Part shown: piece after piece, positions 310 through 6,536 of the stretch | How the letters are laid out: the number at the start of each line of letters is the position of its first letter | How positions within the stretch are numbered: the stretch's first letter is position 1 | Assembly (NCBI GenBank): GCA_015066465.1 | Contig: SVOI01000002.1 | Coordinates: 1-44,153 of the forward strand | Source: Oscillospiraceae bacterium | GTDB lineage: Bacteria > Bacillota > Clostridia > Oscillospirales > Acutalibacteraceae | Length of the DNA: 44,153 nucleotides | Reading direction: 5' to 3' | Position numbers and translations under genes: made by a program | Notes under the pieces: generated by a model | Database searches by the model: none | Told to the model about the DNA's origin: nothing | The model's input: the letters and a program-made list of their open reading frames with translations, nothing else

Positions 310-786
310 TTACTTTTTTATTTTCTCCCATTCCTCAACCAAGCTTTCAACATTCCACATAGCATTCGCTGGTGAGGTTGAGGGCAGACACACGGCATCT
401 CTGCCAATTTTATTCTTTATATATCTATTGTAGTATTTTTCAGCAGTTTTACCATTGACAAAGATTTTTTTAATATTGGCAGTTTCTAAAATCTCAGTTA
501 AATCGTTTGCAACAACGTTTTTAATGGAACTATCAGAACTGCCGGTAATTTCACAAGAAGCTATAACATCCCACAATGCGATATTTGAAGAAAGCAAAAA
601 AGCACGTTTTTCTTCAATCGTTGTGGGAATTTCTTTTTCTAAAACTGTCGCTACCACTTTCCAGAATCTGTTTTGTGGGTGACCGTAAAAAAAGTTTTGT
701 TCACGTGATTTTACAGATGGAAAACTACCGAGTATAAGAATCTTTGAGTTTTTATCATATAGTGGCGGAAATGGGTGTTGTAGCAT
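310..786 (-). CDS. DNA-deoxyinosine glycosylase (UDG superfamily, family 6-like)
   Basis: The 158-residue protein matches the pattern of the hypoxanthine/deoxyinosine DNA glycosylases of the uracil-DNA glycosylase superfamily. The N-terminal active-site region reads GSFPSVKSREQNFFYG, followed by HPQNRFW (residues 20-42). LWDV with GSSD follows near 71-85, and the C-terminal LPSTSPANA loop is at 134-142. Such enzymes excise deaminated adenine (hypoxanthine) from DNA; the length is normal for the family. The ribosome site AATGGAG lies within the last codons of the upstream gene, so the two are probably translationally coupled. It is the last gene of the attenuator-controlled operon. A repair enzyme beside acetyltransferases and nucleotidyltransferases is unexpected and may point to nucleic-acid damage, or may simply be a passenger. 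Confidence 0.85.
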   Translation of the reverse strand: MLQHPFPPLYDKNSKILILGSFPSVKSREQNFFYGHPQNRFWKVVATVLEKEIPTTIEEKRAFLLSSNIALWDVIASCEITGSSDSSIKNVVANDLTEILETANIKKIFVNGKTAEKYYNRYIKNKIGRDAVCLPSTSPANAMWNVESLVEEWEKIKK

Positions 787-788
787 AA

Positions 789-1724
789 TTATTCTCCATT
801 AAATACTTTTAATAACAAATCATATTCATAACTGTCGCCTTGATAGCTTTCTTTTATTCTTGCAATAGGTTCCGCAAAGCCGTTCTTTTCGTACATATAA
901 CGAGCTCTTGCATTATCATCTTCAACACCTACTGTAAACTCACTATATCCATTTTCTTTAAGTATAGTTAACACATTTTCAAGCAAATATGAGCCTAACC
1001 CTTTACCTTGATAGTTTGCGTGGATACGAAATGCATATAAATATGCTCGTTTGCCTTTCTCAGCAAAACGGTTATCATTACTAATATATTTTACTCTCAG
1101 TTCACCGATAATTTTATTACCGTCAAACAAAGCGAAAACATCAATAACCCCGTTTTCAATTTCTTTTGTGTTTTCGACAATCATATCGTTAACATCTTTG
1201 TAGTTGAAAAGATTGGTAAGTATAGAAAGTTCAGTTACTTCAAGCTTTCTAACTGGATACAGCATCCTTTTTATAAACTCAATCTTCTGATTATCTTGTT
1301 TTTCTTTAACATTCATCCTATAACCGTCTTGTGAAGATTTTTGATAAACCTTCAGATATTGCTCCAATGATAAAAGCATAAAATCGATTCCTTTTACATT
1401 TCGGATTTCAATGTCACAAATATCAATATCTGCAAAATCTTTCAATCCGTCAATTGAAGCATAGGAATAATCAACTGCATCTTTGCGAAATGTGTGTTCG
1501 TGTTCATCAATTAATATATATCCGTGACTTTCTAAAAACAATTTAAACTCTGTCCATTTGTCACCTGTTACAAACACTTGTGGAATAAGGATATCAATAT
1601 CATCTGCATTTAATGATGAATCTGTTAAAACCTCTAATCCTAACGAGCCATAAAGCAATGGAACAATATTAAATTTGTCATTAAGCATTTCTGCATTTTG
1701 TAAAAAGTAATCAAACTTTGTCAT
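789..1724 (-). CDS. Nucleotidyltransferase-like domain fused to GNAT acetyltransferase
   Basis: A two-domain protein of 311 residues. The N-terminal part has the hallmarks of a minimal nucleotidyltransferase fold: YGS at 25-27 and paired acidic residues DDIDIL at 41-46, with a further DIDICD near 99-104. The C-terminal part (about 160-305) is a GNAT acyltransferase with the acetyl-CoA loop QGKGLGS at 239-245 and a typical NARARYMYEKNGF strand-helix near 271-283. Nucleotidyltransferase and GNAT folds are both common in antibiotic-modifying enzymes, but the substrate here is unknown. The start follows an AGGGTG ribosome site with good spacing, 11 bp after the upstream stop codon. Confidence 0.75.
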   Translation of the reverse strand: MTKFDYFLQNAEMLNDKFNIVPLLYGSLGLEVLTDSSLNADDIDILIPQVFVTGDKWTEFKLFLESHGYILIDEHEHTFRKDAVDYSYASIDGLKDFADIDICDIEIRNVKGIDFMLLSLEQYLKVYQKSSQDGYRMNVKEKQDNQKIEFIKRMLYPVRKLEVTELSILTNLFNYKDVNDMIVENTKEIENGVIDVFALFDGNKIIGELRVKYISNDNRFAEKGKRAYLYAFRIHANYQGKGLGSYLLENVLTILKENGYSEFTVGVEDDNARARYMYEKNGFAEPIARIKESYQGDSYEYDLLLKVFNGE

Positions 1725-1735
1725 ATTACACCCTG

Positions 1736-2287
1736 TTATAAATTAAACCTATCTTTTATCATATTGGCAACAATATCCGGTGCCAAGTTTGAGTTATCAA
1801 TTTTTATATAATTCGGGAATGTTATTTCACCATCATAACTTTCTGTACGATATTTTTCATCAGTATCAAGCAAATCCTTCCTTGCAAAATCAAGATCACG
1901 CTTTGACGGTTTATTGTTAAGTCGGTTTTCTGATGAATTTCTCTTTAATCGTATTTCCTGAGAAGCAACAAGTTCAACATAATAAACTTCTGCACCTTGC
2001 TCTTTGAATAAATCAGTAACATATTTTATGTAATCCCAATCACCTTGGTGGTCAAGCGCCCATACATAAGTGAATATCATTCCGTAATTGTTGCTCTTTG
2101 AAAACTCTTCAAAAAAAACCTGTCGTAATCTATTGACTGTTTTTCCCTCGTAATATCCGAATATCTCTATAACAGGTTCAATAGTCATATGATTATGAAA
2201 CAGTTTTAAGTCTGTGATTTTTGCAAGTTCTTGTCCGACAGTCATTTTCCCAACTGCCAGATTACCAAATATTATAACTAATTTCAT
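1736..2287 (-). CDS. P-loop kinase-like protein (shikimate/AAA-type nucleotide kinase fold)
   Basis: A small P-loop protein of about 183 residues. The first strand runs straight into a Walker A-type motif, GNLAVGKMT. Here methionine follows the lysine, a variant known from a widespread group of small uncharacterised kinase-like proteins. A basic lid-like segment (SQEIRLKRNSSENR) lies in the second half. It probably phosphorylates a small molecule; the substrate cannot be told. A longer reading would begin at a TTG at 2296, but AAAGGA abuts that codon and stands nine bases from the ATG at 2287, so the ATG is chosen. It is the fourth gene of the operon. Confidence 0.7.
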   Translation of the reverse strand: MKLVIIFGNLAVGKMTVGQELAKITDLKLFHNHMTIEPVIEIFGYYEGKTVNRLRQVFFEEFSKSNNYGMIFTYVWALDHQGDWDYIKYVTDLFKEQGAEVYYVELVASQEIRLKRNSSENRLNNKPSKRDLDFARKDLLDTDEKYRTESYDGEITFPNYIKIDNSNLAPDIVANMIKDRFNL

Positions 2288-2305
2288 AGTATCCAATCCT
2301 TTAAT

Positions 2306-3496
2306 TCATATTCTTTCAACAAAGTCAATCAACTGTTTCAGATTATGTATCGTCCATTCATCATTACTTTCACCGCTTCGGTCAAGATGAAATGCCGTAA
2401 AACCTTGTTCTCTCGCACCGTCTGCTTCATCTTTACAATCATCAACAAATATGCTTTCTGTAGCGGTTACACCTTGTGCCTCAAGTGCAGCATTGAAAAT
2501 AATCGGACTTGGTTTTCCTGCACCGACTAAGGAGCTTGCAGTAAATGAGGTAAAATACTTTGCGATACCAAGCTGTTGCAAAGTAAATTCGAGTGATGGT
2601 GAAGTATCACTGATAACGCCCATTTTATAGCCGTGTTTTTTGAAATATTCAAGCACCTCTACCGTCTCAGAGAATAAGGCTCTGTCTCCGTTACACCAAA
2701 GTTCATTCAGAAGTAATTCAGCCTTATTTTCAACATCTTCTGTAACACCTTCGGCTATAAGCAAGTGATAATAGTATCTCTTAAAAAACTCACGCTCGTC
2801 TTGGAGTGTCTTATACCATGGCTTTCTGCCTTCGCTTGCGAGTTGAAACAGCGACATCATTTTATCGTAATCAAGTTCAAACGGCTTGCTACTCCACTCG
2901 CTAATTGTCTTATCACGCCACGCTTCTTTTTCAGCAGTAAAATATGTCAGTGTTCCGTCACGGTCAAAGAATATTGCTTTGTATTTTTTTAGTCCGCACT
3001 TATTATAAATCTCCTCAATACACGGTGACTTATAATTAATATAATCATCTATACTATCAGGGAATAATTTTGCCCCATCTTCTTTTACTTTGCTGTATTT
3101 CAGCACAGCTTCAGGATTATTTCTCAAATAGTCTCTGAAAGAAATATGTCTGTGAAGCTCCAAAGAAAATTCAGGACAAACATATAAATGATGTTTCGGT
3201 AAATCTACATCGCCCTTATAATCAAAGGCTTCTCTGTCTTTTATGCCAAGATTTCCTTCGTGTATGTAACCGAGAGTTGCTAATCTTTCAACTACTGTAT
3301 TGAATACTGAATAGTCTTTGATGACAATATCAATGTCAATAATCGGTTTTGCAGAAAGTCCTTCAACAGATGTGCTGCCAATATGCTCAATGCTAATTAT
3401 TATATCTTTTATTGCTGTCAAAAGACACTTTTTAATTGTCTCAAAATCCCTTTTCCATTGTTCATTATACGGAACAACTACAACTCGTTTTGCCAT
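2306..3496 (-). CDS. GrpB/UPF0157 nucleotidyltransferase-like domain fused to HAD hydrolase
   Basis: A fusion of 396 residues. Residues 1 to about 170 form a GrpB (UPF0157) domain, a nucleotidyltransferase-fold family, with VPYNEQWKRDFE, IEHIGSTSVEGL and KPIIDIDIVI. Residues 175-396 form a HAD-superfamily hydrolase with all four motifs: nucleophile loop FFDRDGTL, VISDTSPS, GKPSP and IFVDDCKDEADGA. A large helical cap lies between motifs I and II. GrpB proteins normally stand alone; the fusion suggests coupled transfer and hydrolysis of a phosphorylated or nucleotidylated compound. The GAGGTG ribosome site is well placed. The gene lies 2 bp from its upstream neighbour. Confidence 0.85.
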   Translation of the reverse strand: MAKRVVVVPYNEQWKRDFETIKKCLLTAIKDIIISIEHIGSTSVEGLSAKPIIDIDIVIKDYSVFNTVVERLATLGYIHEGNLGIKDREAFDYKGDVDLPKHHLYVCPEFSLELHRHISFRDYLRNNPEAVLKYSKVKEDGAKLFPDSIDDYINYKSPCIEEIYNKCGLKKYKAIFFDRDGTLTYFTAEKEAWRDKTISEWSSKPFELDYDKMMSLFQLASEGRKPWYKTLQDEREFFKRYYYHLLIAEGVTEDVENKAELLLNELWCNGDRALFSETVEVLEYFKKHGYKMGVISDTSPSLEFTLQQLGIAKYFTSFTASSLVGAGKPSPIIFNAALEAQGVTATESIFVDDCKDEADGAREQGFTAFHLDRSGESNDEWTIHNLKQLIDFVERI

Positions 3497-3498
3497 TT

Positions 3499-4383
3499 TT
3501 ACACCTCATTTAATAAAGATACGATGTATTTGTCTAAGTCATCCGGTGGCGTTTTATTTATAAAATCTCTTGTTAATGACTTTACTAAATATTCCTCAAA
3601 TGCATTAAGTTTTCCGTTTTCACTATTGGAAAGGTAATATGAAGAATCTATACAATCAAAAACTTTCTTGTTCACTAAAATTATATTTTGATTTTTACAC
3701 ACATGCGGATGAACTATCCGATGCAAAAACTCATGTACCACAGATTCTAAACTAAATTGACCTGAACTAAAAATAAACTCGCCATTTACAAAGTGATAAT
3801 CACTTGAATATGCACATTTAATGGGAGACAACACTATTTTAATGTTACTAATTTGTGCATTATATTTACTTGTGCAAATTTTAATAATTTCTTGAAGTGT
3901 TATTAAATTTTCTGCATTTGTTTGGTTTTCTCGTTCTATCCAAGTATTTTCCCAAATTAAATATTTTTTAAAATACTCATTATTTATAACTTTGTTTAAC
4001 TCCATGGGAAAATAAGAAATCCAATCCCAGAAATTTTCATTTCTTTCTATGTCTTGCAAATTGCTTGCTAACATAACAAAATTCTTGTAAGCCTCAAAAT
4101 CCGAAAATTGTTTCAAATCACTATCAAGATAAAACACAGCCGATTCTAACAAAGCCGCTCTCGGCCAATATGAATATGTTTCACAAGTGTTTTGTTTAGT
4201 TTGTGAAAAGAAATCACAACAAAACTCTGGGTTATAAAATGATTTTACGGTTTCAAGTTCTTCCTCTGTTCTTCCAAGAGAGTAGTAATCATACCCCGAC
4301 TGTAACAATGCAAAATAAATTGCTGATATTGCAGGCATGTTAGTTATTGATATATTTCTAATAGACTTATCTAACTTTGCCAC
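3499..4383 (-). CDS. Putative zincin-like protein with HEFLH motif, function unknown
   Basis: This 294-residue protein was not recognised as a characterised family. It contains a clear HExxH motif (HEFLH, residues 217-221) preceded by small hydrophobic residues (SVV). A downstream NAFEEYL at about 260-265 could supply a third metal ligand, as in gluzincin-type metallopeptidases. There is no signal peptide or membrane segment, so it is probably cytoplasmic. The start is a GTG with GAGGTG six bases upstream. It is the second gene of the operon, 3 bp from the acetyltransferase gene. The metal-dependent peptidase role is inferred from the motif alone. Confidence 0.6.
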   Translation of the reverse strand: MAKLDKSIRNISITNMPAISAIYFALLQSGYDYYSLGRTEEELETVKSFYNPEFCCDFFSQTKQNTCETYSYWPRAALLESAVFYLDSDLKQFSDFEAYKNFVMLASNLQDIERNENFWDWISYFPMELNKVINNEYFKKYLIWENTWIERENQTNAENLITLQEIIKICTSKYNAQISNIKIVLSPIKCAYSSDYHFVNGEFIFSSGQFSLESVVHEFLHRIVHPHVCKNQNIILVNKKVFDCIDSSYYLSNSENGKLNAFEEYLVKSLTRDFINKTPPDDLDKYIVSLLNEV

Positions 4384-4386
4384 TAA

Positions 4387-5364
4387 TTACACCTCTTTGC
4401 ACATAGTAATCTCTGCTTTAGACTTACCAACAATACTAAACCCACATTTACTATAAAGTCCTATTGCTACTAAATTATCTTTCGTTGTATGTAATTTTAC
4501 TTGTTTATAGCCACGTTGTTTCAGATATTGAATTGCAAATTCTACAGCGAATTCCCCTACACCTTGATGTTTGAATTTACCAGAAACAACAAGCATTGAA
4601 ATCCAAGCAACATCTTTATTATGCAATCCGTTCAACTTCAACCAAGCACATTGCAAATCAATTTTACAAACGATAAAATTCTCTTCGTCAGAATCTTGTG
4701 GTTCTGCAAATGCTTTTTGCCATTCTTCCAATGAAATAATTTCTGTATGCAAAGCAGAAAGATTATTTTCTTCAGACATAAGATTGTAAATGAAGTTAAC
4801 ATCTTTTTCTGTAAATGGTCGTACAGCATATTGATTCTGCAAGTCAATTTCAAATCGCAATGAAGTTTTACCATCCTCACAGAATTTTTCTTTTAGTTTG
4901 CCGCCATTTTTCAATATCGTTTTAATTGCACCATGGTTATTTTCATAAGGAACGATTTCTACACTTTTGAATTCGGTATCTCTACAAATATCTAAAGCAA
5001 GACGCAACATAATTGTTCCTAAACCTTTGCTTCTATGCCAAGGAGCAATACCTGAATGAAGATGTCCCCTGCGAGTATTGGAACTATTTATAACTATAGC
5101 ACCATATATTTCTTTGCTGTCGTCAACAAGAAAATACAGTGTACAAGGTACTCCTGTGGATAGCATTGAGCCTGTTGTTCGGTCATCTTCGCACCATTCC
5201 AACCATTTTGAATACGAAACATTTTCACCTAATGATTTACTATATCTGCGTAACAACTGAGGTTGAATATTATCTTCAATGGACTCCCATTTATCCATCA
5301 TTGCAGTATATTGTTTTTCATAGGTTTCGTCTGGTATAACAAGTTTATAATTTTTAATATCCAT
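4387..5364 (-). CDS. Tandem-domain GNAT acetyltransferase
   Basis: Two GNAT folds lie in one chain of 325 residues. The first (about 1-175) has the acetyl-CoA loop RSKGLGT at 111-117, after HLHSGIAPWH. The second (about 178-320) has KHQGVGE at 265-271 and a NLVAIGLYSKCGF segment near 297-309. Double GNAT proteins include drug-modifying and small-molecule N-acetyltransferases; the acceptor is unknown. This is the first gene behind the attenuator. A strong AGGAGG ribosome site lies nine bases before the ATG, immediately after the terminator's T run. Its translation therefore does not depend on the leader peptide. Confidence 0.8.
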   Translation of the reverse strand: MDIKNYKLVIPDETYEKQYTAMMDKWESIEDNIQPQLLRRYSKSLGENVSYSKWLEWCEDDRTTGSMLSTGVPCTLYFLVDDSKEIYGAIVINSSNTRRGHLHSGIAPWHRSKGLGTIMLRLALDICRDTEFKSVEIVPYENNHGAIKTILKNGGKLKEKFCEDGKTSLRFEIDLQNQYAVRPFTEKDVNFIYNLMSEENNLSALHTEIISLEEWQKAFAEPQDSDEENFIVCKIDLQCAWLKLNGLHNKDVAWISMLVVSGKFKHQGVGEFAVEFAIQYLKQRGYKQVKLHTTKDNLVAIGLYSKCGFSIVGKSKAEITMCKEV

Positions 5365-5390
5365 AATAGTTTTCCTCCTGTAAAAAATAT

Positions 5391-5415
5391 AGGCACCTCC
5401 GAAACGGAGATGCCT
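5391..5415 (-). terminator. Leader terminator of a transcriptional attenuator
   Basis: On the minus strand AGGCATCTCCG and CGGAGGTGCCT form an 11-bp stem around TTT, followed by ATATTTTTT. All positions pair in the minus-strand RNA, one as a G-U wobble. In the plus-strand RNA that same position would be a C-A mismatch, which shows that the minus strand is the functional reading. It stands between the leader peptide and the tandem-GNAT gene, so it must be bypassed for the operon to be expressed. Confidence 0.85.
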
Positions 5416-5478
5416 TTTAAATTTACAGAAAGATATATTACATCAATCGCAAATGGACAAAATGGCATCTCTGTTTCG
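5400..5478 (-). promoter_or_regulatory. Antiterminator pairing within the leader RNA
   Basis: Leader codons 8-12 on the minus strand (CGAAACAGAGATGCC, 5478-5464) are complementary at 14 of 15 positions to GGCATCTCCGTTTCG (5414-5400). That second segment is the 5' arm and loop of the leader terminator. The two structures are mutually exclusive. Ribosome position or speed on the leader ORF would decide whether the first segment is free to block the terminator. This is the classical layout of ribosome-mediated attenuation; the direction of the response is inferred. Confidence 0.75.
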
Positions 5479-5499
5479 TAAATAAAAATTCATTGTCAT
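5443..5499 (-). CDS. Attenuator leader peptide, 18 residues
   Basis: A short ORF reads MTMNFYLRNRDAILSICD and ends in TGA. It lies about 30 bases downstream of the -10 box and is preceded by GGTAGGTGG, with AGGTGG five bases before the ATG; an in-frame ATG at codon 3 is also possible. Its codons 8-12 form the first half of the antiterminator. The segment FYLRNRD resembles FQMRNVD of the ErmB leader, a known macrolide-dependent arrest peptide, though this similarity is short and could be chance. It is probably a regulatory peptide without a function of its own. Confidence 0.75.
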   Translation of the reverse strand: MTMNFYLRNRDAILSICD

Positions 5500-5527
5500 T
5501 TCGTCCACCTACCTTTCATTTTTTATC

Positions 5528-5556
5528 ATTGTAACAATATATTTCTTTTTTGTCAA
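5528..5556 (-). promoter_or_regulatory. Sigma-A promoter of the attenuated operon
   Basis: On the minus strand TTGACA (5556-5551) and TACAAT (5533-5528) are separated by exactly 17 bases. Transcription should start near 5520, about 20 bases before the leader ATG. The promoter is strong, so control is likely exerted after initiation by the attenuator. No terminator is seen between the dehydrogenase stop codon and this promoter. Confidence 0.85.
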
Positions 5557-5570
5557 TATTATTCTATACC

Positions 5571-6536
5571 TTAATATCCCCTGTCAAAATCCACAACGTT
5601 TTTAAAAGTGCCACCACACAAGTAGCTTTCAATATTTTCGAAGCAGATTTTCCAAATTTTATCCTTTGTAGCTTCGTCGCCACTGAATGACGGACCAGCA
5701 ATATGAGGTGTAATAATTACATTTTCCATATCCCAGATTTCTGAACCTTGTGGAATAGGCTCAGCTTCAAAAACATCTAAAACTGCACCTTTAATTTTAT
5801 TCTGCTTCAAAATTTCAATTAAATCGCTTGTAACTATAAGGCTACCACGACCAACGTTTACTAAAACAGAATTTTCTTTCATAAGAGAAAGCATTTCTTC
5901 ATTTAACACGCCAATAGTAGCATTTGTTTCTGGTAAACAGCAAACTACAATATCTGCTTTTGGCAACAAAGTTTCAAGCTCAACTATATCAAAAATCTCG
6001 TCGAAATTTTCTAAAAAATCTTCTTTCGATTTTCTTCTTATACCAAATATTTCTTTAACACCCAAAACTTTAAGCTTTTTAGCAGTTGTTCTGCCTATAT
6101 CACCTGTGCCTAAAATAAGAACAGATTTGCCATTTATAGTTTCAACTGTCGCTCTTTTTTGCCAGATATGGTTTTGCTGATTTTTAATATAGAAATGAAA
6201 ATCTCTGTAAAGGGCAAATATTCCGCCAATTACATATTCAGAAATAACTTCGCCAAATGCTCCACTTGCTGTCAAAAGAGTAACGTTTTGCGGAAAGTTT
6301 TTTATTTTCAAAAATTTATCGGCACCAGCCCAGGTAAGCTGTAACAATTTTAAATTTTCTGCCAACGATAATTCATTCTCAGTAGGCTCACCAACAATCA
6401 CAGTTGCAGTTTTAAGGTCGTTTTCGCTTATTTCACCATCGCAGAAAACAATCTCTGCCCTGTTACTGAAGCATTCAAAAAATTCTTCTCGTATTTCTTC
6501 ATCAGTACTAACCTTAACTAAAATCTTTTCAGTCAT
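5571..6536 (-). CDS. D-isomer-specific 2-hydroxyacid dehydrogenase (NAD-dependent)
   Basis: The 321-residue protein has the full set of family signatures. The NAD-binding loop GTGDIG is at 143-148. The catalytic arginine is in VNVGRGSL (R230), the glutamate in DVFEAEP (near 257-259) and the histidine in ITPHIAG (H278). The N-terminal substrate-domain sequence TWAGADKF fits the subgroup of glyoxylate/hydroxypyruvate-type or uncharacterised reductases found in clostridia. It reduces a 2-oxoacid with NAD(P)H, but the exact acid is unknown. It is transcribed alone from a promoter back to back with the plus-strand operon. Confidence 0.88.
   Translation of the reverse strand: MTEKILVKVSTDEEIREEFFECFSNRAEIVFCDGEISENDLKTATVIVGEPTENELSLAENLKLLQLTWAGADKFLKIKNFPQNVTLLTASGAFGEVISEYVIGGIFALYRDFHFYIKNQQNHIWQKRATVETINGKSVLILGTGDIGRTTAKKLKVLGVKEIFGIRRKSKEDFLENFDEIFDIVELETLLPKADIVVCCLPETNATIGVLNEEMLSLMKENSVLVNVGRGSLIVTSDLIEILKQNKIKGAVLDVFEAEPIPQGSEIWDMENVIITPHIAGPSFSGDEATKDKIWKICFENIESYLCGGTFKNVVDFDRGY

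Follow-up and report, generated by a model that had tools for sequence, protein, structure and literature searches.

In Bacillus subtilis, the vmlR leader carries a uORF within an anti-antiterminator hairpin, followed by an antiterminator, an intrinsic terminator and a hairpin that sequesters the SD sequence, as described in the available part of PMC9226507. According to the same text, drugs that stall initiating ribosomes induce vmlR, uORF translation is required, and the gene remains uninduced when the uORF start or SD function is abolished. In Clostridioides difficile, the cplR leader has a 5′ hairpin that sequesters the uORF and a terminator region that sequesters the SD of the main gene, and mutation of the uORF AUG leaves a reporter inactive (available part of PMC10201436). 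Both systems precede ABC-F genes; the uORF of vmlR has 3 codons and an SD described as single-stranded (PMC9226507, in part), and that of cplR encodes the tripeptide MRI (PMC10201436, in part). The bmrBCD genes of B. subtilis are controlled by ribosome-mediated attenuation in response to protein-synthesis inhibitors, with a predicted anti-anti-terminator and a 162-bp ORF that contains the terminator (available part of PMC4191407). In Escherichia coli toiL, several classes of ribosome-targeting drugs are sensed through arrest positions, by means of Rho-dependent termination and translation attenuation (available part of PMC12121999).

We analysed a window of 44,153 nucleotides, contig SVOI01000002.1 of an Oscillospiraceae bacterium whose assembly comprises 92 contigs and is 80.6% complete. 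Here, an operon is headed by a leader whose architecture resembles that of vmlR and of the clostridial cplR: the anti-antiterminator (helix P1) includes the uORF start, and the SD of the main gene is sequestered. Unlike in these two systems, uORFs of the present family have 16-25 codons instead of 3-4, both the SD and the AUG are included in P1, and the genes behind the leaders, like gene 1 of the window, are mainly GNAT genes rather than ABC-F genes. The leader also resembles bmrBCD, but without the long terminator-containing ORF, and toiL in the kind of sensing proposed, but with an intrinsic terminator. Ribosome-mediated attenuators with an anti-antiterminator are a known kind of regulator. 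What appears to be new is this particular family, along with the burial of its start site, the rewriting of its terminator sequences and the set of target genes. Indeed, no Rfam family covered the leader (0 matches reaching the gathering score in the window), and the 2 Rfam matches obtained in 14 related loci both fell outside the leader. No title or abstract describing this leader was found in literature searches whose coverage is thin for subscription journals and bioRxiv, and the word acetyltransferase was absent from the available main text of PMC2965389 and PMC8040213. Near two other leaders, a malK-I RNA (L114:3673-3853, minus strand) and an ssNA-helicase RNA (L105:4039-4087, plus strand) were recognized by Rfam; both are apparently unrelated to the element.

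Leader architecture and alternative folds

Along the transcript, the leader of the window is composed of the following elements:

5528..5556, minus strand: sigma-A-type promoter TTGACA-17-TACAAT, read directly from the sequence (-35 TTGACA 5556-5551; spacer 17 nt; -10 TACAAT 5533-5528)
5497..5512, minus strand: strand a, leader SD and AUG; 5′ side of P1, predicted anti-antiterminator (MFE fold)
5443..5499, minus strand: leader ORF MTMNFYLRNRDAILSICD, 18 sense codons and TGA (ATG 5499-5497; TGA 5445-5443; sequence read)
5464..5478, minus strand: strand b, codons 8-12; antiterminator 5′ side (complementarity, z -7.7)
5449..5464, minus strand: strand c, codons 12-17; 3′ side of P1 (MFE fold, codon limits)
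5441-5436 with 5368-5363, minus strand: outer helix beyond helix P4, reaching the gene 1 start codon
5422..5433, minus strand: strand f, post-stop segment; 5′ side of P4 (MFE fold)
5400..5414, minus strand: strand d, terminator 5′ arm and loop; antiterminator 3′ side
5382..5415, minus strand: intrinsic terminator with an 11-bp stem, a 3-nt loop and a T run (stem 5415-5405 with 5401-5391; loop 5404-5402; T6 5387-5382; sequence read)
5373..5384, minus strand: strand g, end of the T run and gene 1 SD; 3′ side of P4
5379-5374, minus strand: gene 1 SD AGGAGG, with the ATG from 5364

The promoter, the leader SD, the 18-codon ORF, the 11-bp terminator with its T run and the SD of gene 1 (AGGAGG) were all found where an earlier reading of this DNA (hereafter, the sequence-only reading) had placed them. 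A short ORF with an SD therefore stands upstream of an intrinsic terminator, as in ribosome-mediated transcription attenuators. A promoter-like site (at most 1 mismatch) was also present 5′ of 59 of the 64 related leaders, a main set of non-redundant sequences from which 6 redundant leaders, out of 70, had been removed.

The sequence-only reading had moreover proposed that codons 8-12 pair with the 5′ arm and loop of the terminator. This was confirmed: strand b (5478-5464) was complementary to strand d (5414-5400) at 14 of 15 positions, with an energy of -24.1 kcal/mol versus a shuffled mean of -6.9, and an energy as low was obtained in 0 of 200 shuffles. The bipartite leader pattern matched once in the window and never in 100 shuffles of it. 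The whole leader had an MFE of -56.2 kcal/mol (z -8.37), and none of 200 shuffles was equally stable. In the MFE fold of the window leader, computed without a ribosome, two helices absent from the sequence-only reading were observed, P1 and P4, which nest with the terminator without conflict. The b:d pairing conflicts with all three: it overlaps the terminator, has C5464 in common with P1, and crosses P1 as well as P4. The leader RNA is therefore a system of two alternatives, consisting of either P1, the terminator and P4 together, or b:d. As in an attenuator, the antiterminator excludes the terminator and overlaps the ORF.

In the window, P4 had an energy of -15.3 kcal/mol (z -4.1, p 0.005), and the SD of gene 1 was paired at 5 of 5 positions. 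Among relatives, P4 reached p ≤ 0.05 in 25 of the 51 testable leaders (13 of the 64 being left out), and at least 3 SD bases were paired in 37 of these 51. On the basis of the folding model, P4 would add translational control in the window leader.

Conservation and covariation of the pairings

Conservation in homologous leaders had been set beforehand as one of the points on which the sequence-only reading could fail. Both the complementarity and the short ORF were kept, which supports a switch between terminator and antiterminator that overlaps the leader ORF. Compared with shuffled versions of strand b, the native b:d pairing was the better one at p ≤ 0.05 in 55 of the 64 leaders and at p ≤ 0.01 in 46; the nine leaders missing p ≤ 0.05 were L133, L155, L072, L016, L017, L019, L147, L073, and L021. 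Among 30 loci obtained with a two-strand P1 pattern (see below), 21 repeated members of the 64, 2 were chance matches, and all 7 new leaders exhibited b:d at p ≤ 0.05.

The terminators of the 64 leaders formed 14 sequence groups by crude k-mer clustering. The mean b:d energy was -14.8 kcal/mol with a leader's own terminator versus -8.6 kcal/mol with those of other groups. The own pairing was better on average in all 14 groups, and in 35 of the 64 leaders the own partner was matched or surpassed by no more than 5% of those from other groups. Examples of rewritten pairs are TTATACGACGCCG with CGGCTTCGTATAA (L099), CTGATAAAGTCAA with TTGATTTTATCAG (L035), and AAACCGAAGTGC with GGCATCTTCGGTTT (L027). 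If the switch works as proposed below, the family would constitute a natural experiment, in which the architecture was kept while the terminator sequence was rewritten many times.

P1 and the terminator were examined in alignment A6 (73 matches, 72 distinct), which replaced a set of 102 matches (A5) that included antisense and weak matches. In A6, which is fitted to the P1/terminator model and so leans the counts towards it, and which includes the 18 sequences used to build the model, 97.5% of the P1 and terminator cells were paired, versus 86.9% in shuffles and 42-52% when the strands were slid; 0 of 500 shuffles scored as high. For P1 alone, 98.1% of cells were paired across the 72 distinct sequences, and for the terminator alone 96.8%, with changes on both sides in 11 of 11 pairs. 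Covariation in P1 was thin, with both-side changes in 2 of 13 pairs, corresponding to 4 cells. The exchanges GGACATAATG with ATTATGTC and GGACGATATG with CATATTGTTC were found in L088, L083, and L037. By eye, GGACGAGATG with CATCTTGTCC was seen in L034, and related copies within the genus (L077, L081, L085, L086, and L089) were inspected in the same way.

The codons of strand c were restricted as well: its leucine codon was TTG in 61 of 63 leaders (ATG in the other 2), and its serine codon was exclusively TCC or TCT (63 out of 63). As these are the codons that pair, it is the RNA pairing that seems to be conserved, rather than the peptide. Indeed, the leader peptide was variable, and the amino acids between the start and strand b changed freely among relatives. 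The start-to-c distances of 34, 37, 40, and 52 share one frame, with L037 (47) out of frame. P1 and b:d had 1-4 nt in common in 47 of the 64 leaders and abutted exactly in 12, which fits the expectation for an anti-antiterminator.

Ribosome position and the proposed switch

We consider it probable (roughly 70%) that the element attenuates transcription through a leader ORF and competing layers of RNA structure, in the manner of vmlR and cplR. In the OFF state, P1, the terminator and P4, with the SD of gene 1 buried, would fold together, RNA polymerase would stop, and leaked transcripts would be poorly translated. The leader ORF is presumably translated, and a ribosome arrested on its first codons would cover the 5′ strand of P1; the freed codons 8-12 could then pair with the 5′ arm of the terminator, allowing transcription to read through. 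In this ON state, b:d would prevent the terminator and, by crossing it, P4 also. A ribosome held in mid-leader would cover codons 8-12 and leave the terminator free, and with no ribosome P1 would close over the leader start site and lock the OFF state.

The preferences of the 64 leaders were modelled by masking the ribosome footprint on the nascent RNA up to the end of strand d. When codon 1 or codon 2 occupied the P site, b:d was formed in 128 of 128 cases. It was formed in 2% of 642 cases with a mid-leader ribosome and in 34% of the 64 leaders with no ribosome, and it was allowed in 66% of them when the stop codon occupied the A site. The modelling bore out the claim of the sequence-only reading that a ribosome on codons 8-12 opposes the antiterminator. 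By this modelling and by analogy with vmlR and cplR, we conclude that the ON signal is probably arrest at the leader start, with P1 acting as a putative anti-antiterminator that would also shut the sensor ORF; the direction of switching, from OFF to ON upon such arrest, is likewise the one expected from these two sources. In mechanism, the element stands nearest to vmlR and cplR, and not to ermK or the tet genes with which the layout had previously been compared. The candidate signal would be any arrest of the ribosome at the start codon, and the inducing drugs might include tetracyclines, pleuromutilins, lincosamides, or streptogramin A. The available part of PMC12121999 names drugs believed to stall ribosomes on start codons.

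The sequence-only reading had expected slowed initiation or early elongation to switch the operon ON. Early arrest agrees with the modelling. Slowed initiation as such does not find support, since P1 hides both the SD and the AUG of the leader and overlaps or directly adjoins the antiterminator strand; moreover, start mutants of vmlR and cplR are uninduced. There is a counterpoint in favour of the earlier view: without a ribosome, and before the 3′ arm of the terminator exists, the window leader prefers b:d at equilibrium (14.9 expected pairs, versus 0.0 for P1). The order of folding therefore matters, and the OFF state proposed for the window rests on P1 forming first, presumably because it is transcribed first.

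The same equilibrium preference would suit a different mechanism, in which any loss of leader translation gives ON, with P1 and b:d co-forming an H-type pseudoknot and P1 latching the ON state. Its geometry is possible, with strand b in the P1 loop directly 5′ of strand c and a loop 1 of 8-35 nt (median 17). We nevertheless hold this mechanism to be unlikely: the two helices compete for the nucleotides common to P1 and b:d in most leaders, as given above, and the ribosome-free nascent state remained below 5 expected b:d pairs in 66% of the 64 leaders. In addition, vmlR and cplR leaders without uORF initiation are uninduced in the available parts of the cited papers, and P1 would often be closed before the first ribosome arrives, so that a latch of this type would probably entail high basal expression.

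Start-site arrest is also to be weighed against arrest at the end of the leader, where a ribosome at the stop codon would mask strand c and free strand b, giving ON. The stop codon lies 2-4 codons 3′ of strand c in 62 of the 64 leaders, the stop-codon ribosome was permissive in the 66% of leaders reported above, and msrDL and toiL were reported to arrest ribosomes near the stop (available part of PMC12121999). The ends of the peptides, however, differ by leader group (SICD, SAN, SAR, SASC, SVI), so no arrest signal of the nascent chain shared by the groups was seen, and we regard leader-end sensing as quite improbable. More improbable still is an amino-acid or tRNA-charging attenuator of the trp/his kind: the terminator/antiterminator logic would be the same, but no run of a single residue was seen by eye in the leader peptides, the codons before strand b vary among relatives, and the downstream gene families are not biosynthetic. 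An ordinary terminator of the upstream dehydrogenase gene, which lies on the same strand and ends at 5571, accompanied by a chance ORF, is hardly credible and already contradicted, given the promoter between that gene and the leader, the recurrence of the element beside unrelated neighbours, and the tracking of the terminator by b:d across the 14 sequence groups.

Macrolide sensing through R/K-X-R/K codons was considered as a family trait and rejected: the motif was present in just 15 of the 64 peptides, and arrest there would cover strand b.

Range of the family and genes behind its leaders

The source genome holds three copies of the leader, the other two being 88% and 89% identical to that of the window over the aligned leader. 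Searching 250 genomes of the GTDB family at the DNA level gave 21 matches in 14 genomes, 18 of which (12 genomes) were accepted as leaders by sequence and formed alignment A3. Within the genus, the covariance model built from A3 (R1) recognized 17 of 22 genomes at E ≤ 0.01, with 29 matches in all, including 17 matches with E < 1e-9 in 13 of these genomes. In 300 family genomes, a two-strand P1 pattern had 32 matches, spread over 24 of the genomes (16 of 135 genera), and its reversed control gave 0 among the matches listed for these genomes. Of 30 P1-pattern loci, 28 had the element's ORF and terminator and 2 were chance matches (L259, L270). A similar pattern was found at no fewer than 80 loci, that is at least 80, in named GTDB genomes.

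Relatives recognized by the leader element belonged to Clostridia, mostly from gut and rumen samples. Records were split by their titles into Clostridia-type and others: a short ORF with strand c in frame was present in 41 of 44 Clostridia-type matches, 2 of the 41 (L101 and the plus strand of L113) being regarded as chance or antisense, and was accompanied by a terminator in 35 of the 44; in other records, the corresponding values were 1 and 0 out of 37. At the class level, 39 of 391 genomes passed E ≤ 0.01 in a covariance search, and 5 of the 391 were confirmed as carriers beyond the source genome (G549, G333, G324, G257, and G575). The weak covariance-model matches L038-L041 were rejected as the element by eye. 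None of L038-L061 fitted the P1 regular expression, which misses some variants, such as the locus of G333. At the phylum level, hand counts gave 56 pattern matches in 50 of 398 genomes versus about 32 for the reversed control, and, judged by the matched string alone, only the three matches of the source genome looked real among these 398. Overall, the range of the leader family is narrow.

Left out of the main set of 64 were L109 and L112 (leader at the sequence edge, without terminator), L101 (a coding match in a Holdemanella record that had been counted as Clostridia), the plus strand of L113 and the minus strand of L035 (antisense of P1), as well as L036 and L034, P1 variants missed by the regular expression. 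By itself, L036 exhibited b:d at p below 0.005.

A mobile or phage element was also considered and rejected. The window leader had no match in plasmids or phages, and a composite leader query gave partial matches there, none covering 80% of the query. In IMG/VR, 20 stretches fitted the pattern and 0 combined a short ORF containing strand c with a terminator.

The operon behind the window leader comprises six genes:

4387..5364, minus strand: gene 1, tandem GNAT acetyltransferase, 325 aa (Pfam Acetyltransf_1 5.5e-24, 2 stretches)
3499..4383, minus strand: gene 2, 294 aa, with an HEFLH (HExxH) motif (our reading of the motif)
2306..3496, minus strand: gene 3, GrpB domain fused to a HAD hydrolase
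1736..2296, minus strand: gene 4, P-loop kinase-like protein, 186 aa (weak AAA_18 match, E 0.043)
789..1724, minus strand: gene 5, fusion of a nucleotidyltransferase-like N-terminus with a GNAT (GNAT 1.1e-15)
310..786, minus strand: gene 6, DNA-deoxyinosine glycosylase (TIGR04274 5.9e-42, above cut-off)

The product of gene 2 had no Pfam or NCBIfam match. Five relatives of gene 4 were found behind other leaders of this family. The resemblance of gene 5 to aminoglycoside nucleotidyltransferases was weak (Aminoglyc_resit E 0.049, below cut-off). The enzymes of the operon may act on drugs. As a separate observation, the HEFLH motif of gene 2 resembles that of zincin-type metalloenzymes, and a relative of gene 2 is located behind the leader in L014.

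In the source genome, one further leader copy is followed by genes for a methyltransferase, a GNAT, an HD protein, an S66 peptidase, and a methyltransferase, and the other by genes for a methyltransferase, a TIM barrel, an APH-kinase fusion, and two GNATs. The S66 (LD-carboxypeptidase) peptidase gene lies at L004:4188-5222, within the operon of the second leader copy. Among 57 first genes behind leaders (at least 100 aa), 32 encoded Acetyltransf_1 proteins, the next commonest being ABC transporters and methyltransferases (3 each); no ABC-F-specific family was present among the best 25 of the 42 families found for these 57 genes. Another of these first genes encodes an MFS protein resembling Mef(A), with a score under the curated cut-off. 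The leaders of L083 and L088 are followed, as next long ORF, by the gene for an ABC transporter, which recalls the ABC exporter encoded by bmrBCD (available part of PMC4191407).

The 129 downstream protein entries, in which three loci were entered twice, formed 47 groups by BLAST clustering. Some groups of small enzymes recurred at differing positions in different leader-headed operons, which suggests that gene order may have been shuffled among them. A broader proposal, to which we give somewhat less than even odds, is that one portable RNA sensor of start-arrested ribosomes is common to gut and rumen Clostridia and recombines as a module before reshuffled arrays of acetyltransferase, methyltransferase, phosphotransferase, nucleotidyltransferase-like, and exporter genes. 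If so, the leaders would delimit a xenobiotic-response regulon that has gone unrecognised, and searching with them could uncover antibiotic-modifying enzymes hidden from sequence similarity. A recognisable leader of 140 nt would mark the genes that uncultured gut anaerobes activate upon ribosome arrest, a vague class of GNAT and kinase operons would become testable drug-response genes, and the logic of vmlR and cplR would extend from ABC-F proteins to enzyme operons.

Finally, a second branch of the leader was observed in the genus (L077, L081, L083, L085, L086, L088, and L089), with P1 of the GGACATRATG / RTTRTGTC type and leader peptides ending in NYPVIMSASC or similar.
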